Below, one piece after another: positions 25,174 through 44,643 of a stretch of DNA of 45,884 nt. The translations under genes were made by a program, and so were the position numbers. Numbering within the stretch: the first letter of the stretch is position 1; each line of letters begins with the position of its first letter. Source of the stretch: Armatimonadota bacterium (GTDB lineage: Bacteria; Armatimonadota; UBA5829); the NCBI GenBank assembly GCA_029907315.1, contig JARYME010000011.1, positions 1-45,884 of the forward strand, written 5' to 3'. The notes below the pieces were generated by a model, which was not told the DNA's origin, did no database searches, and saw only the letters and a list, made by a program, of their open reading frames with translations.

Positions 25174-26232
25174 ATGTCGGAGCAGGAATTCAGATTAACG
25201 ACGTTGTCACACGGCGCTGGGTGAGCTTGTAAGCTGGGAGCCCAGCAGTTGGCGCAGGTTCTGCGCCTGATGCCGAAAGTGACGGACCCAAACGTTCTCG
25301 TCGAGCTGTCGACGGCGGACGATGCCGCCGTGTACCGGGTCACCGACGACATCGCCATTGTTCTGACCGTCGACTTCTTCACACCCATCGTAGACGACCC
25401 CTATGAGTTCGGGCGGATAGCCGTCACCAACGCCCTCTCGGACATTTACGCAATGGGGGCACGCCCTGTGGCAGCACTCAACCTTGTGGCTTACCCAGCT
25501 CGAACCAAGAGTCTGGACATGCTGGAGCGAATATTGAAAGGCGGAGCCGATCAGGCGGTAGCCGCAGGCGTAAGCATAGTGGGCGGGCACTCTATCGACG
25601 ACCCCGAGCCCAAGTACGGCTTGGCAGTTATGGGACTGGTCAACCCCGCGGAAATAGTGACCAACGCAGGGGCGCAGCCCGGCGATCATCTGATTCTCAC
25701 GAAGCCGTTGGGCACAGGTATTATATCTACAGCCATCAAGAAGCAGTGCGCGCCGTCCGACATCGTTGCCCGCGCAATTGACGTTATGACCACCCTGAAC
25801 GCAGCGTCGGCAGAGGTGATGAAGAGAATAGGTTGTAGCGCGTGCACGGACGTCACGGGTTACGGACTAATTGGACACCTGCGTGAGATGGCAACTGCCA
25901 GCAAGGTGGGCGCTGTTGTCTACGCGAACAGGGTACCAATGATCGAGGGCGTCAAGGACCTACTCGATCTTGACATGGCGCCTGGAGGAACCGAGGCAAA
26001 CCTTGAGTATCTAACCAGCAGTGGAGCCGTGGTCTGGGATGATGCCGTCCCGAACTACTATCGGCTTCTGCTATGTGACGCGCAGACTGCCGGTGGGTTG
26101 CTGATAGCCGTGAGACCGGCTCAGGCAGAAAGGCTGATCGACGAGCTTCATGCAGCAGGCGTAACCGAGGCAGCAGACATCGGCACAATAACGGAAGATT
26201 CGAACTGCCAAATAAGGGTAATATTGGGTTAG
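25174..26232 (+). CDS. selD: Selenide, water dikinase with selenocysteine at codon 17
   Basis: SelD makes monoselenophosphate, the selenium donor for Sec-tRNA and selenouridine synthesis. The frame is open from ATG 25174 through a TGA at 25222-25224 to a TAG at 26230-26232, 352 residues in all. The TGA is codon 17 in SHGAG-U-ACK, exactly where SelD proteins have catalytic Cys17 or Sec, with C19 and K20 conserved after it. The rest is a standard AIRS/PurM-type kinase: DFFTPIVDDPYEFGRIA, NALSDIYAMGA, GGHSIDDPEPKYGL and TKPLGTG. A TTG start at 25249 would lose the whole active-site loop. A stem-loop begins right after the TGA. Reading through requires SelA, SelB and SelC, which are not in the window. 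A ferredoxin gene follows by 24 nt. Confidence 0.9.
25222..25253 (+). promoter_or_regulatory. Predicted bacterial SECIS element in selD
   Basis: Directly after UGA (25222-25224) the strand folds into GCTGG (25233-25237) with CCAGC (25242-25246), loop GAGC with a G at its tip. Weaker outer pairs including wobbles extend the stem to 25225 and 25253. Position and size fit bacterial SECIS elements, which SelB binds within the coding region. No program was run on the fold. Confidence 0.6.
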
Positions 26233-26256: not shown

Positions 26257-26439
26257 GTGAAAGCAACGATCACCGACGACTGCACCCTGTGCGGACTGTG
26301 CGAGGACACTTGCCCTGAAGTATTCACCATGGGCGACGAAAAGGCTCAAGTGAAAGTCAACCCAATACCGCCGGAGCTCGAGGACAAGGCCAAGGAAGCA
26401 GCCGAGCAGTGTCCTGTTCAAGCAATCGTGCTTGAGTAG
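26257..26439 (+). CDS. [4Fe-4S] ferredoxin
   Basis: A 60-aa single-cluster ferredoxin. The first three ligands are C9, C12 and C15 in the CxxCxxC pattern, C19 follows as CP, and the last ligand is C52 in CPVQAI. This matches mono-[4Fe-4S] ferredoxins of Thermotoga type, where C19 pairs with a further Cys as a disulfide; that second Cys is missing here, so C19 is free. It is a small soluble electron carrier. The GTG start has a GGGGG stretch about 9 nt upstream. The 24-nt gap from selD suggests a shared transcript; the redox partner is unknown. Confidence 0.9.
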   Translation: MKATITDDCTLCGLCEDTCPEVFTMGDEKAQVKVNPIPPELEDKAKEAAEQCPVQAIVLE

Positions 26440-26538: not shown

Positions 26539-27324
26539 TCAGCTGCGGCCTACTAGTCGGTACATTGAGCCCAAGGGAATATGGTGTGCTTTGATGCCGA
26601 ATGTGCTTTCAATGTACTCGGCAAGCTTCTTTAGACCAGGCTCCTCTGCCACCGTGTGATTGACAAGCACCAGAGGCAGACCTTTATCCAGGACCCACGA
26701 ACCTTCTGCCCAGTAGTGCATGCCGTCGTCGGTTCCGATAATGGCGTCGGCTCCTAGTTGAACCATCTTATGGTAATCGGTGCCTGCTCCGCATCCTATG
26801 CCGACCCTGGTTATCTTGGCCTTCGGGTCGCCGACCATCTCGACGCTGTCCTGGCCAAGGGGCTTCGTCTTTTCTAGCACGTATTCCGCCAATTCCTGAA
26901 GCGTCGAGACGGGCGCCGGGTGCACTGCTTCCATCGCGTTTCCCGCAGATCCGCCCGTCAGCCCCAAGTGGGCTGCCCAAGCGTCGACGATGCCGATGTG
27001 CGGCACACGATCCCATACGTCGTGGCAGCGGAACACCACCAAACCTTTTTCTTCGCAGAATCGCCTTTTGTTTGCCTCATACGGCTGAATTTCGCCCTTT
27101 CGTGCCACTTGGGGTTCTGGGTACTCGAACTGCTCGTGTGTGATGAAAAGGTTGCAACCCAGTGCGTGGGCCTTCTTGAGGGCATCTAACCTCGCTTGCC
27201 AACCCACCGCTACGGCTTTTATTTCGGTGTTTGGGTCACCAATTTGGAAGTGATCAGTCGTCGCGTTCCAGTTGACCCACGTACCCATCTTGCGGAAGTG
27301 ATCAAAAAGTTCCTGAGCTGTCAT
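26539..27324 (-). CDS. Nif3-like dinuclear metal centre protein (DUF34), copy 1
   Basis: A 261-aa member of the NIF3/YqfO/YbgI family. The usual metal ligands are seen with one change: H63-E64 in THEQFEY where many members have His-His, H101/D102 in RCHDVWD, and H223 with E227/E228 in VNHTVAEEP. Family members form hexameric toroids with two metal ions per subunit, and their physiological role is unsettled despite the GTP cyclohydrolase type 2 label. It is about half identical by eye to the second copy at 28740-29522. Both follow carbohydrate-active genes; this one starts 6 nt after a sulfatase stop and is last in its operon. A GAGG ribosome-binding site lies 4 nt before the ATG. Confidence 0.85.
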   Translation of the reverse strand: MTAQELFDHFRKMGTWVNWNATTDHFQIGDPNTEIKAVAVGWQARLDALKKAHALGCNLFITHEQFEYPEPQVARKGEIQPYEANKRRFCEEKGLVVFRCHDVWDRVPHIGIVDAWAAHLGLTGGSAGNAMEAVHPAPVSTLQELAEYVLEKTKPLGQDSVEMVGDPKAKITRVGIGCGAGTDYHKMVQLGADAIIGTDDGMHYWAEGSWVLDKGLPLVLVNHTVAEEPGLKKLAEYIESTFGIKAHHIPLGSMYRLVGRS

Positions 27325-27330
27325 GTTACC

Positions 27331-28743
27331 TCACCAATCCACGTTATTGACCAATTCTACGCCTGCCTCTCGGCAGCGTTGAATCCAGTGTTCGTAGGTC
27401 TCGCCCGGCGAAGGAGACTGCGGATTAGGCACGTGAGCTTCTTGAAATACCCTCTCCGCCTGACGAACTACGTCCGGCTTTTCGGAAGACAGGTCGCGTT
27501 CATGGGCGGGATCGTCTTCTGCATGATAGATCTCGATGCTGCTTCTTGGATTCGGCCTGTACGCCCACCAACATCCCAACCGCGCAGCCTGCTGGTTGCC
27601 GAACTCCCAGTAGAAATAGTCGTGTTCTCGCTGGTCAGACTCGCAACCGAAAAGGGTCGGCAGGATCGATATGCCGTCACACGGCTCTGGTATCCTTGCG
27701 CCAGCAAGTTCGGCCGCGGTCGGCAGGAAATCCCAAAACGCCCAGGGATGAGTGCTTACCGCACCTGCCTTTATTCGACCAGGCCACCACGCGATCGCGG
27801 GAACACGCACCCCACCCTGATAAAGGTTCCCTTTTTCACCCTTGAATGGTCCCCTGTGGTGAAACACATCGTCAAGGGACGGATCCTTCGCCGCGCCGCC
27901 TGCACTATAGCCGTTGTCTGTCGTGAAGAATATTAGGGTGTTCTGATCAAGCCCAAGCTCGGTGAGCAAGTTTAAGAGATCGCCGATCGCCGCGTCCATG
28001 CGGGTCACCATGGCTGCATAGATACGATGAACCAGGGGCCAAGGCTCATCCTTGTACCGGCCCAACTCCGGGACTTCGTGCACTCCATGCGGAATAGTGT
28101 ATGCAAGGTATAAGAAGAATGGTCGATCTGCGTTTCGACGAACGAACTCCAGCGATTTCTCCGCGTACAAATCGAACGAGTATTTCGGATTGGGACCAGC
28201 GCAGCCGTTGGGTATGATGCGGCCTGACTCGTCGTATTCGTTAGGTTTCAGATGATCATGACCGAAATTGTCCGGAATCTCTATCTTCTCATAGTTGTGG
28301 TAGAGAAACGGAGGATAATAGCTGTGAGCGTGGCGCTGGTTCAGATACCCGAAGAATTCGTCGAAGCCCTTACTATTCGGCAGACCTGGCTGTCCGGGTA
28401 CAGATAACCCCCACTTACCAAAGACTCCGGTTGCATAACCTACTTCGCGAACGACTTGTGCAACCGTAGTGTCTTGTTCGGTGAGGCAAGGTCTGTAGAA
28501 TCCCCCCTCAAACCGGACCATATTGTCGCGAACACTCGCGTGTCCCGAGTGCAAGCCCTGCATCAAGCAAGAACGAGATGGTGCACAAACGGTAGACCCG
28601 CTGTAGCAGCTCGTGAAACGCATCCCTTCCTCAGCCAGGCGATCGATGTTGGGAGTAGAAATGAGCTTCTGCCCGTAACAGCCCAAGTCGCCCCAGCTGA
28701 GATCGTCCGCCATAATCCAGATTATGTTGGGTTTGCAAGTCAT
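27331..28743 (-). CDS. Sulfatase, formylglycine-dependent (CAPSR type)
   Basis: A 470-aa arylsulfatase-family enzyme with no evident signal peptide. The N-terminal metal motif MADDLSWGD and the catalytic C53-A-P-S-R, whose Cys must be converted to formylglycine, are followed by GKWGLS, the FFTTDNGYS Asp-Asn metal motif and an HHRGPFKGEKGNLYQGGVR stretch as in the family. It would hydrolyse sulfate esters of a glycan or other organosulfate. It lies in the middle of a six-gene operon and its ATG overlaps the stop of the upstream Nif3-like gene (ATGA). The substrate cannot be inferred from sequence. Confidence 0.92.
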   Translation of the reverse strand: MTCKPNIIWIMADDLSWGDLGCYGQKLISTPNIDRLAEEGMRFTSCYSGSTVCAPSRSCLMQGLHSGHASVRDNMVRFEGGFYRPCLTEQDTTVAQVVREVGYATGVFGKWGLSVPGQPGLPNSKGFDEFFGYLNQRHAHSYYPPFLYHNYEKIEIPDNFGHDHLKPNEYDESGRIIPNGCAGPNPKYSFDLYAEKSLEFVRRNADRPFFLYLAYTIPHGVHEVPELGRYKDEPWPLVHRIYAAMVTRMDAAIGDLLNLLTELGLDQNTLIFFTTDNGYSAGGAAKDPSLDDVFHHRGPFKGEKGNLYQGGVRVPAIAWWPGRIKAGAVSTHPWAFWDFLPTAAELAGARIPEPCDGISILPTLFGCESDQREHDYFYWEFGNQQAARLGCWWAYRPNPRSSIEIYHAEDDPAHERDLSSEKPDVVRQAERVFQEAHVPNPQSPSPGETYEHWIQRCREAGVELVNNVDW

Positions 28744-30891: not shown

Positions 30892-32220
30892 TCAAAATGG
30901 TGCATCCGATCCACCAATGTGAGCGCCTCCGGGTAGGTCCGACACGAACCTCTGCGCAATTTGCTTGAGCTCAGTCACGATATGCGGGTACTCGTCCGAG
31001 CGGTCCACGGATTCCCTAATGTCCAGCTGCAGGTTATAGAGCTCAGGCTTGGGCAGTAAGCGGTCTTCGCGTCCGAGGTGCAGTTTCCATTTGCCCACAC
31101 GGACAGCTTGGAGAGCATTGGTGACAAAGTAGAAGAATGGTTTGGAGGGCAAGCTTGCACCCGGAACTGTCAGAAGTTTGGTTATGTCACGCCCGTCAAT
31201 CGGGCGGTCGGAAGGCAATTTGCCGCCAGCCAAACGGATCAACGTTGGAAAGATATCGAGGTTGGTCGCCGGCTGGTGACAAACTATCCCCGCCGGGATA
31301 AGGCCTGGGCAGTAGGCGACAAACGGCACCCGCACGCCGCCCTCAAAGACTTGACCCTTCTTTCCACGCAGTATACCTGCCGACCCCAGGTTGGGCCCGT
31401 TATCACTAGTAAACATAATGAGGGTGTTGCGCTCCAGCCCCAGCTCGCGCAGCGTATTCACTATTTGACCAACGCCCCAGTCGATACATTCGACCGCATC
31501 GCCGTACAAACCGCCCTTGGACCTGCCTCGAAACCTTTCGGAAGCCGATACAGGATTGTGAGGCATATTGTGTGCTAGGTAGACGAAGAAGGGTTTGTCC
31601 TTGTTCTGCTTGATGAATCCAATGGTTTCGGCGGTGTATCTTTCGGTCAAGGTCTCTTGAATAGCCGGCTGTTCGATAATTTGTTCTCCCCGCATGAGCG
31701 GACAATTAGGTCTGCCGTCGACACGGTCTCCCATGTTGTTGGAGTAAGGGATTCCATAGTAGTAGTCAAAACCGTGGCGCGTGGGTAAGAACTGGGGCAG
31801 GTGGCCAAGGTGCCATTTGCCGATCAGCGCGGTTGCATATCCCAAGCTCTTAAGCGCTTCTCCGATAGTCTGCTCGCTTTCAGGTATTCCCGTAGTATTG
31901 ACGGGGCCTAATATCCTGGTCAGTCCGGAGCGAATTGCGTAGCGACCTGTGAGCAAACCGGCTCTGGAAGGCGTACAGACCGGCGCACACGTATCGAAGT
32001 CCGTGAAGCGCACACCCTTCGCTGCAAGCGAATCGACATTAGGCGTATGAATCGTAGGCGAACCGTAGCACGAAAGATCACCGTAGCCCAGATCGTCGCA
32101 GTTGATCAGAACGAAGTTCAATCGCCGCGGATGCCGGTCAGCCGCGAGCACGGGATGTCCTGCCACGGCAGCCGCAACAACACTCCGCAGAAAAGCTCTC
32201 CTAGTTATCAAAGCACTCAT
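30892..32220 (-). CDS. Arylsulfatase A-type sulfatase with Tat-like signal
   Basis: A 442-aa sulfatase. A twin-arginine-type signal starts TRRAFLR and is followed by a hydrophobic run to ~residue 27, so export is likely. INCDDLGYGDLSCYG supplies metal Asp residues, C82-T-P-S-R is the formylglycine motif, GKWHLG follows, and FTSDNGPNL supplies the later Asp-Asn. It closely resembles the truncated sulfatase at 44640: both share FLPTRHGFDYYYG and ETLTERYTAE, indicating paralogues. An AGGCGGG stretch precedes the ATG. It precedes the GH gene by 17 nt, whose ribosome-binding site lies in that gap. Confidence 0.93.
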   Translation of the reverse strand: MSALITRRAFLRSVVAAAVAGHPVLAADRHPRRLNFVLINCDDLGYGDLSCYGSPTIHTPNVDSLAAKGVRFTDFDTCAPVCTPSRAGLLTGRYAIRSGLTRILGPVNTTGIPESEQTIGEALKSLGYATALIGKWHLGHLPQFLPTRHGFDYYYGIPYSNNMGDRVDGRPNCPLMRGEQIIEQPAIQETLTERYTAETIGFIKQNKDKPFFVYLAHNMPHNPVSASERFRGRSKGGLYGDAVECIDWGVGQIVNTLRELGLERNTLIMFTSDNGPNLGSAGILRGKKGQVFEGGVRVPFVAYCPGLIPAGIVCHQPATNLDIFPTLIRLAGGKLPSDRPIDGRDITKLLTVPGASLPSKPFFYFVTNALQAVRVGKWKLHLGREDRLLPKPELYNLQLDIRESVDRSDEYPHIVTELKQIAQRFVSDLPGGAHIGGSDAPF

Positions 32221-38794: not shown

Positions 38795-38837
38795 GCTTGC
38801 GTGAGTGCGGACATTTGAGATTCGAGGCTTGAAAGAT

Positions 38838-39797
38838 ATGGTGTCAGGAAGTCGACTTGAACGGCTGCTAAGACAAGGTGAATTCGTCGTATGCGGGGAG
38901 ATGAGCCCGCCGCAAGGCGCGGACAAGGCTCCGATTCTCAAGAAATGCGAGTACTTTCGCGGCTACGTTGATGCGGTAAACCTCACGGACAACCAGACGG
39001 CCATTGTGCGAATGAGCTCGATTATGTCAAGCGTGTTTGCCATCGAAGGCGGCTGTGAGCCGATTATGCAAATGACGTGCCGCGATAGAAACAGATTGGC
39101 TCAGCAGTCGGACCTTTTGGGCGCGTATGCGGCAGGGATTCGCAATGTGCTGTGTCTGACCGGCGACTACCAGACGTTCGGCAACCAGGGCGACGCCAAG
39201 GGAGTGTTTGATCTGGACTCGGTGCAGCTAATACACACGGTTGCCGACATGAACAGTGGACGGCTGCTCTCGGGTGACGAGCTGAAGCCGCCACCCGCTT
39301 TTTTCATTGGGGGTGCGGCGAATCCTTTCGCCGAGCCGCTGGAAATGAGGATAATTCGGCTCGAGAAGAAAGTTGCAGCCGGGGCACACTTCATTCAGAC
39401 CCAGCCTGTTTTCGATTGGCCTAAGTTTGAAAAGTGGATGTCGGCGGTGCGCGATGCCGGACTCGACCAAAGAGTCTTCATAATAGTCGGGGTGATGCCC
39501 GTAAGATCGGTCAAGGCACTGCTCTATATGCGCGACGAAGTGCCCGGGATGAGCATTTCTGAGGAATGCATCAAGCGAATGGAATCGGCACAGGACCCGA
39601 AGGAAGAGGGTGTAAAAATGTGCGTCGAAACGATGCAGCGCTTGCGCGAGACCCCGGGCGTTCGAGGCATCCACATAATGCCCGTGATGTGGGAATCTAT
39701 TACCCCTCGCTTAGTTGAGGAAGCCGGGCTGCTGCCGCGGCCTGAGCCTTTGCCTGTGGAAGAAGAAACAACAGCAGAACCCGCGGAGACCAGTTAG
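38838..39797 (+). CDS. metF: Methylenetetrahydrofolate reductase
   Basis: A 319-aa FAD TIM barrel that reduces methylene-THF to methyl-THF. The family motifs include GEMSPPQGAD, VNLTDNQ, MQMTCRDRNRLAQQSDLLGA, LCLTGD, FFIGGAANPF, FIQTQPVFDW and IVGVMPV. It is followed 3 nt later by metV, and this MetF-MetV pair is the arrangement of acetogens, where the complex takes electrons from ferredoxin or partner proteins. I prefer the ATG at 38838; a GTG at 38805 is in frame but has no RBS. The C-terminal tail (PLPVEEETTAEPAETS) is acidic and likely disordered. Confidence 0.92.
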   Translation: MVSGSRLERLLRQGEFVVCGEMSPPQGADKAPILKKCEYFRGYVDAVNLTDNQTAIVRMSSIMSSVFAIEGGCEPIMQMTCRDRNRLAQQSDLLGAYAAGIRNVLCLTGDYQTFGNQGDAKGVFDLDSVQLIHTVADMNSGRLLSGDELKPPPAFFIGGAANPFAEPLEMRIIRLEKKVAAGAHFIQTQPVFDWPKFEKWMSAVRDAGLDQRVFIIVGVMPVRSVKALLYMRDEVPGMSISEECIKRMESAQDPKEEGVKMCVETMQRLRETPGVRGIHIMPVMWESITPRLVEEAGLLPRPEPLPVEEETTAEPAETS

Positions 39798-40336: not shown

Positions 40337-42004
40337 ATGCTATCCGACGTAGAGATCGCCCAGCAGAGTAAGCCGAAGCACATTCGAGACATTGCCGGTG
40401 AACTGGGACTGACCGAAGATGATCTCATCTACTACGGCCGCGACAAAGCTAAGGTACCTCTGGAAGTCCTACAGCGCCTCAAGGACAAACCGGACGGGAA
40501 GTTGATACTGGTCACTGCGATAACGCCTACCCCTGCCGGCGAAGGAAAAACAACAACCGCGATAGGCCTAGCCGACGCGCTCCACAGGCTCGGGAAGAAA
40601 ACTTGTCTTGCTCTGCGAGAACCTTCTTTAGGACCGTGCTTCGGGATCAAAGGCGGTGCCGCCGGCGGTGGATATGCTCAGGTTGTGCCGATGACGGATA
40701 TAAACCTGCACTTCACGGGCGACTTGCACGCCGTGACAACCGCCCACAACCTTCTCGCTGCAATGCTCGATAACCACATTCACCAAGGCAACGAACTAGG
40801 TATAGACATCCACTCCATAACCTGGAAGCGCGTAATGGACATGAACGAGCGCGCTCTGAGGCAAATCGTAATAGGGCTCGGAGGAAAAGCAAACGGCGTC
40901 CCCCGTGAATCGGGTTTCGACATTACGACAGCCTCGGAAGTGATGGCCCTTTTGTGCTTGTCCTCAGACAGACAGGACTTGGAACAACGGCTGGAGCGCA
41001 TAATTGTAGCGCTGGACAAGAACGGCAAGCCGGTGACCGCGAAGGACCTGCAGGCTTCGGGAGCGATGACCGTGGTCCTGAAAGACGCCATAATGCCGAA
41101 CTTGGTCCAGACCTTGGAGCACACACCGGCATTTGTTCACGGCGGGCCGTTCGGGAACATAGCCCACGGCTGCAACTCGATAATCGCCACGAGGCTGGGT
41201 CTGAAGCTGGCAGATTATCTAGTGACGGAAGCTGGCTTTGGAAGCGATTTGGGGGCTGAGAAGTTCTTCAACATAAAGTGCCGAGTGGCGGGGCTGAAAC
41301 CGTCGGCTGTGGTAGTCGTCGCCACGATTCGCGCCCTGAAGATGCACGGGGGAATGCCGTTAACCGATTTGCAGTTGAGTAATCCCCAAGCCTTGGAGAA
41401 AGGCATTGAAAACTTGGAGAAGCACTGCGAGAACGTCCGAAACGTAGGGCTGGAACCAATTGTAGCAATCAACAGGTTCCCGAGCGACAGCGCAGAGGAA
41501 ATTGAGGTGCTGTCTAAGTTCTGCAGCAGTGCCGGGGTAAAATGGGCTTTGTCTGAGGTCTGGGCTAAGGGAGGCGAAGGCGGCATTCAACTTGCGGAGT
41601 TGGTGCTGGAGGCTTCTCAGCAGGAGTCGCGTTTTGAACCCTCGTACCCTCTGGAGATGAGCATAAAGGACAAGATAAACCACATTGCCCAGAAGTTCTA
41701 CGGTGCGGATGGGGCTAAATTCTTACCGGCGGCTGAGTCTCAGATCAGACAGATCGAAGCCCTGGGATTCGGGAACCTGCCCGTGTGTATGGCGAAGTGC
41801 CAGACATCGCTGTCGGACGATCCGAAGGTCTATGGCAGACCAAAGAACTTCGAGATCACGATACGAGGAGCCAAGGTAAGTGCCGGTGCTGGCTTTGTGG
41901 TCGCCTATGCAGGAGACATAATGACAATGCCAGGACTACCAAAGGTGCCCGCGGCGACGAAGATTGGCATGAAGCCAAACGGAGAGGTGTACGGCCTGTT
42001 CTAA
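40337..42004 (+). CDS. fhs: Formate-tetrahydrofolate ligase
   Basis: A 555-aa enzyme of standard length that joins formate to THF with ATP to make formyl-THF. The P-loop [28 protein letters not shown], THxFTGDLHA-like [38 protein letters not shown] and NRFPSDS are all family hallmarks. It begins the methyl branch that metF-metV completes; folD (the middle step) is not here. A GAGAGGTGG ribosome-binding site precedes the ATG. No terminator is visible after its stop. Confidence 0.97.
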
Positions 42005-43203: not shown

Positions 43204-44643
43204 ATGCAAGACGGCAATTTGACTCGGAGAGAAGTTCTGAAAAGGGCAGCGGTGTTGGGTGCTTATGTGCTCGTTCCGTCGGCAGTAAGCGGAGAATCTG
43301 AGCGGGCATCCGACTCAACCGGTCAGAAGAAAAGACCGAATTTCCTTTTTGTGTTTCCCGACCAGCATCGTTTCGATTGGGTGCCGTGGAATCCGAAGGT
43401 GCCCGTTAGAATGCCCAATCTCGAAAAGTTGGCGGCGCGGGGAGTTCGGTTCAATTGGGCTTTCACCCCCTCGCCGCTGTGTGCACCGGCGAGGGCTTGT
43501 CTGGCATCAGGACGTGAGTACGAACGATGCGGGGTGAAGAACAACGACCAGGATTACCCGATCGACCAGACAACTTTCTACAAGCTCTTGCGCGATGACG
43601 GCTACTGGGTGATGGGCTGCGGTAAGTTCGATTTGCACAAGGCCTCGCCGATATGGGGTATTGACGGCAAGAACCTGCTGACCGAATGGGGCTTTTCGGA
43701 CGGTATCGACAATGCCGGCAAGCAGGACGCGGTCGCTTCTGGACGCGATAAGCCCCGCGATCCTTATATGGCTTTCCTGGAACGGCGCGGGCTGAGGCAA
43801 CTACATGTCGAAGACTATCGAAAACGCTCCCAGGTGGGCAAGGCGGCAGTGTTCCCAACTCCGTTGCCGGACGATGCCTACTGCGATAACTGGGTGGGCC
43901 AAAACGCTCTGGAGCTGATCCGAAAAGTGCCCGCAGGAAAACCGTGGTTCTTGCAGGTGAACTTTGTGGGACCGCACCCCCCATGGGACATCACGGAAAG
44001 TATGACAAAACTCTACCAGGACGTCGAGTTCCCGCAGCCGAATGGCGGCACTCAGTTGACGCCAGAGCAAAACGTTGCAGTTCGGAGAAACTACTCGGCA
44101 ATGGTAACGAACATCGACCGCTGGTTGGGACTTTTTGTAGACGAGCTAGCGAGCAGAGGCGAGCTGGACAACACGTTCATCATATACTCAAGCGACCACG
44201 GGGAAATGTTGAACGACCACGGGCTTTGGGGCAAGTCAGTGCCGTATCAGCCTTCGGTCGGTGTACCGCTAGTGATTGCGGGGCCAAGTGTCCGAAAAGG
44301 ATTGGTTACAAACAGCCCTACAAGCTTGATCGATTTGACGGCGACCATCTTGGACTACGCCGGCATCAACGCTCCGCCAACTGTGGATGGGATCTCGCTG
44401 AGGCCGGTGCTGGAAGGTAAGAAGCAAAGGCACAGGGACTACGTGCGCTCCGGGTTGAACGAGTGGCGACTGGTATTCGACGGTCGGTACAAGCTGGTCA
44501 GAGGTTATCCGGAGCGGGACGATCTGCTGCTTTTCGATCTTGAAGCCGACCCTGAGGAAAATCGGAACCTAGCAGCCACCCATAAAGACACAGTGGAACG
44601 GCTGTCTGTAGTCATTGGACCGAGGGAAGGAGAAAAGAAATGA
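43204..44643 (+). CDS. Sulfatase with Tat signal (CAPAR type)
   Basis: A 479-aa sulfatase. LTRREVLKRAAVLGAYVLV is a Tat-like signal, so the enzyme is probably exported folded. VFPDQHRFD supplies the N-terminal metal site (Asp-Gln form), C93-A-P-A-R is the formylglycine motif, GKFDLH stands where the family has GKWHLG, and YSSDHGEMLNDHG is the late metal motif of Asp-His type. The motif pattern is of choline-sulfatase/iduronate-sulfatase-like enzymes more than arylsulfatase A. It has its own promoter and no strong RBS. The next sulfatase overlaps its stop by 4 nt (ATGA), so the two are cotranslated. Confidence 0.92.
   Translation: MQDGNLTRREVLKRAAVLGAYVLVPSAVSGESERASDSTGQKKRPNFLFVFPDQHRFDWVPWNPKVPVRMPNLEKLAARGVRFNWAFTPSPLCAPARACLASGREYERCGVKNNDQDYPIDQTTFYKLLRDDGYWVMGCGKFDLHKASPIWGIDGKNLLTEWGFSDGIDNAGKQDAVASGRDKPRDPYMAFLERRGLRQLHVEDYRKRSQVGKAAVFPTPLPDDAYCDNWVGQNALELIRKVPAGKPWFLQVNFVGPHPPWDITESMTKLYQDVEFPQPNGGTQLTPEQNVAVRRNYSAMVTNIDRWLGLFVDELASRGELDNTFIIYSSDHGEMLNDHGLWGKSVPYQPSVGVPLVIAGPSVRKGLVTNSPTSLIDLTATILDYAGINAPPTVDGISLRPVLEGKKQRHRDYVRSGLNEWRLVFDGRYKLVRGYPERDDLLLFDLEADPEENRNLAATHKDTVERLSVVIGPREGEKK

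Follow-up and report, generated by a model that had tools for sequence, protein, structure and literature searches.

A probable selenocysteine codon at the active site of selenophosphate synthetase in an Armatimonadota bacterium, and apparent loss of the selenocysteine trait in a sister species

Introduction

Selenophosphate synthetases (SelD) that themselves contain selenocysteine (Sec) have long been known in bacteria, including epsilonproteobacteria such as Helicobacter mustelae (PMC4607533), and a survey found Sec in 19% of prokaryotic SelD proteins, always at one position, with Cys in the remainder (PMC4561486). In these described systems the UGA codon is followed by a bSECIS element inside the coding region, and selA, selB and selC are present in the genome. 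H. mustelae has kept the Sec trait with SelD as its sole selenoprotein (PMC4607533), while bacteria that have lost the entire trait are well known (PMC1794560). The published bSECIS model requires a 4–16 bp stem, an apical loop of 3–9 nt that has G in its first two positions, a distance of 16–37 nt between the UGA and the loop, and a minimum free energy (MFE) of −7.5 kcal/mol or lower (PMC13188914).

Here we describe a selD gene in a 45,884-nucleotide stretch of DNA (contig JARYME010000011.1 of assembly GCA_029907315.1, hereafter ‘the window’) from an uncultured member of the Armatimonadota. The enzyme and the position of the presumed Sec residue are the same as in the systems above; the host phylum differs, and the arrangement itself is standard. 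Since Sec-containing SelD is familiar, we regard the locus as an ordinary addition to a known kind of gene, with which one more Armatimonadota genus would join the users of selenocysteine. A full-text literature search combining ‘Armatimonad-’ with selenocysteine returned no match with either word in its title or abstract.

Results

The selD reading frame and its in-frame UGA

The selD gene (positions 25174–26232, forward strand) begins with an ATG codon at 25174 that is preceded by an AGGA motif, and reads MSEQEFRLTTLSHGAG up to a TGA at 25222–25224 (codon 17), followed by ACKLGAQQLAQVLRLMPK, in which the residues directly after the TGA are ACK. No further stop is encountered until the TAG at 26230–26232. 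Translated with TGA as Sec (U), the gene gives a selenide water dikinase of 352 amino acids that matches TIGR00476 over its full length at 387.1 bits (curated cut-off 125). A phmmer comparison with E. coli SelD (3u0o) extends over residues 1–324 (E = 1e-79) and places the TGA on the catalytic Cys17 within SHGAGCGCK. The two homologs thus share the active-site loop SHGAG-x-xCK, including the N-terminal Cys/Sec position and the following Lys (SHGAG-U-ACK in the window), and differ at residue 17, which is Cys in E. coli and predicted to be Sec in the Armatimonadota protein. A preliminary description of this DNA, made from its letters and open reading frames, had proposed the same start, the TGA at codon 17 followed by ACK, and the equivalence of that codon to the catalytic position, all of which are confirmed here. 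It had also warned that a conventional gene call from 25249 would miss the active-site loop. The standard ORF call is indeed a 327-amino-acid frame from a TTG at 25249 that leaves the loop out, so that standard annotation would truncate selD; the gene call is corrected here.

Codon 17 in related SelD genes

Among named relatives, the closest were metagenome-assembled genomes (MAGs) assigned to Armatimonadetes/Armatimonadota (JAAYKG010000012, 65% identity, and JAUSGG010000025, 61%). Clear SelD proteins were present in roughly half of 150 related genomes, the majority of them with one in-frame TGA, and the weaker matches among these genomes corresponded to related AIR-synthase-type proteins. Codon 17 was TGA in most of approximately 110 SelD loci, drawn from many phyla, and TGC or TGT in all others; the comparison of homologs that the preliminary description had recommended therefore turned up no sense codon other than Cys. 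The 16 codons 5′ of the TGA also align to SelD N-termini across phyla. Among family members, G005, G009 and G011 carry TGA at codon 17, while G004 and G008 carry TGC and yet have kept selA, selB and tRNA-Sec. Exchange between Sec and Cys at this codon is the normal pattern for SelD.

The in-frame UGA of the window thus lies where homologs carry either Cys or Sec. Because the reading frame matches SelD both before and after the TGA, and because the TGA recurs in dozens of independent genomes, its presence is not a matter of chance. As judged from these comparisons, the SelD encoded here is very probably a selenoprotein in which UGA is decoded as selenocysteine.

Selenocysteine machinery in the same genome

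The window corresponds to contig 22 in a MAG (G000) of 3.31 Mb and 186 contigs, estimated to be 97% complete and 2.8% contaminated. The preliminary description had expected selA, selB and tRNA-Sec elsewhere in the genome and would have taken the absence of selB and tRNA-Sec as evidence against its reading. All three were found: selA on contig C133 (576.7 bits, cut-off 267.9; an open frame of 469 codons with no internal stop), selB on C14 (390.8 bits, cut-off 242.25; 669 codons, likewise without an internal stop), and tRNA-Sec (selC) on C38 (78.7 bits, cut-off 47), which ARAGORN calls as tRNA-SeC with the anticodon UCA. Since these genes lie on other contigs of a MAG in 186 pieces, contamination during binning is possible in principle, at the estimated level given above.

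A second kind of Sec cassette was seen in two of the related genomes (L180 on G011:C121 and L181 on G003:C176), where tRNA-Sec, selA, a Cys-type SelD and selB are clustered. The SelD of this cassette is an open frame of 544–562 amino acids with a Cys-rich N-terminal extension (CICNPKKGCPC), and G011 carries it in addition to its Sec-type selD. The cassette looks like a separately acquired set.

Loss of the trait in a sister species

A second genome of the same genus (G002; 97% complete, 20 contigs) contains a selD remnant (L135 3871–4191, contig C8) in the same gene order, between a response regulator gene and a NIF3-like gene. Approximately 765 nt of the middle of the gene are missing, and the active-site loop is altered to SRGAG-U-ACM. 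The selA gene is reduced to frame-broken fragments with stops (contig C3; L165 1792–2542) and selB to a single short fragment with stops (contig C18), while a 97-nt remnant resembling tRNA-Sec, unrecognised by ARAGORN, is located roughly 5 kb away from the selB remnant (selC and selB remnants at L164 1226–1487 and 6600–6776). The presence of remnants of selA, selB, selC and selD indicates that the Sec system was in the common ancestor of both species and that, on this sequence evidence, G002 lost the entire trait recently. With recognisable traces of all four genes, G002 is a clean example of such loss, and the pair of intact (G000) and broken (G002) genomes offers a natural case for how, and in what order, the trait is lost.

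The decay in G002 raises the question of whether selD in the window is itself turning into a pseudogene, with the UGA a genuine stop or the entire Sec system decaying as well. We consider this highly improbable: all four genes are intact in G000 (SelD is full length, the SelA and SelB frames are open, and the tRNA-Sec is called by ARAGORN), and the UGA is common to distant relatives and is therefore not a lesion. Still less credible is a gene that starts at TTG 25249, leaving the upstream SHGAG-TGA stretch untranslated or decayed and yielding a shortened SelD-like protein from which the active-site loop is missing. The standard 327-amino-acid ORF does exist, but its product would lack both the catalytic residue and Lys20; the alignment of the 16 codons before the TGA to SelD N-termini and the AGGA before ATG 25174 speak for the longer frame, and the sharing of the same TGA by most relatives in practice refutes the shorter one.

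Two hairpins downstream of the UGA

Two stem-loops follow the UGA on the forward strand. The preliminary description had pointed to a 5-bp stem with a GAGC loop and a wobble extension, beginning right after the TGA. That hairpin exists (25233–25246, GCUGG-GAGC-CCAGC, −8.3 kcal/mol, z −2.15), but it begins 8 nt after the TGA and its loop lies 13 nt from the UGA, outside the 16–37 nt of the model. A second hairpin at 25251–25267 (GGCGCAG-GUU-CUGCGCC, −12.5 kcal/mol, z −4.6) satisfies all rules of the bSECIS model for spacing, loop, stem and energy: it has a 7-bp stem, a 3-nt apical loop of G followed by U, a distance of 33 nt from the UGA, and an energy below −7.5 kcal/mol (PMC13188914).

Pairing was counted in 79 ungapped Sec-SelD and 22 Cys-SelD sequences. 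At least six of the seven pairs of the hairpin at 25251–25267 are present in 62 of the 79 Sec-SelD genes and in none of the 22 Cys-SelD genes (Mann–Whitney p = 8e-13, kinship ignored), and its mean pairing of 6.2 of 7 was not reached in any of 1000 sets in which synonymous codons had been shuffled among the sequences (mean 5.7; kinship again ignored). When every four-pair helix within the 51 nt downstream of the UGA was ranked, this hairpin came first. The stem covaries, with compensatory versions in near relatives (GACGCAA-GUU-UUGCGUC in G011 and CUCGCAG-GUC-CUGCGAG in G016). Some Sec-SelD genes, such as that of G028, are without a counterpart of it. Rfam yielded no SECIS match, whether searched at the gathering threshold or with E values as high as 5. 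From its energy, its pair conservation and its fit to the model, we conclude that the hairpin at 25251–25267, and not that at 25233–25246, is probably the upper stem-loop of the main bSECIS. The counterpart of its stem is broken in the Cys-type selD genes of G004 and G008 (L026 and L028), in which Sec has changed to Cys without loss of the trait.

It is unlikely that the hairpin at 25233–25246 carries SECIS function, alone or jointly with the one at 25251–25267. Its outer pair is kept in only 9 of the 79 Sec-SelD genes, and its pairing in Sec genes does not surpass that in Cys genes (means of 2.16 and 2.18 of 5 pairs); its spacing and its lack of wide conservation speak against it as the main SECIS. 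On the other side, G011 and G016 keep all five of its pairs with compensatory changes, which makes a local helper role conceivable. It is possibly a lineage-specific helper or a product of chance.

Proposed mechanism

We regard it as close to certain, on the sequence evidence above, that 25174–26232 encodes a selenophosphate synthetase with a catalytic Sec17, the Sec being inserted via SelB and the predicted bSECIS at 25251–25267. In the proposed scheme, SelA would make Sec-tRNA-Sec from Ser-tRNA-Sec and selenophosphate; SelB carrying the Sec-tRNA-Sec would bind the bSECIS, so that Sec is inserted at UGA 25222–25224; and SelD would convert selenide and ATP to selenophosphate for the synthesis of Sec, including that needed for its own translation. 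Sec insertion and the enzymatic activity of SelD are expected here from established knowledge of the family.

Selenium use in the host genome

SelD is the only selenoprotein detected in G000 among the few families searched. Neither a Sec-containing formate dehydrogenase nor a Sec protein of the AhpC-TSA family was found there (its formate dehydrogenase-like protein has no in-frame stop), and the stretch around selB, read by eye with TGA as Sec, contained no obvious second selenoprotein. Searches of G000 for selenouridine synthase (SelU) and for YqeB were likewise negative. Among relatives, G016 encodes a Sec-containing protein of the formate dehydrogenase type, and both G005 and G009 have an AhpC-TSA protein whose gene contains a TGA. 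A more speculative reading, which we think doubtful, is that SelD is the sole selenoprotein of G000 and that the Sec system, without a selenouridine or selenium-cofactor trait, is kept chiefly for its own key enzyme, while the sister species in the same genus recently lost its four sel genes. If true, a self-serving Sec system would be seen beside its own collapse.

Neighbouring genes

A small gene directly downstream of selD (26257–26439, forward strand) encodes a 60-amino-acid ferredoxin (FdxA_fam NF058577 at 31.1 bits, short of the curated cut-off), and it is found beside selD in the family members examined (L026, L027, L028, L029 and L030). Since G002 retains this gene after loss of selD (L135 4218–4397, 80% identity over all 60 residues), the ferredoxin is probably not dedicated to selenium. 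Further downstream are a NIF3-like gene (26539–27324) and sulfatase genes at 30892–32220 and 43204–44643, probably also at 27331–28743 as judged by a counterpart in G002 (L135); part of this gene order (sulfatases, NIF3-like) is common to G002. The window also contains genes for MTHFR and formate–tetrahydrofolate ligase of C1/methyl-branch metabolism, close together at 38805–39797 and 40337–42004.
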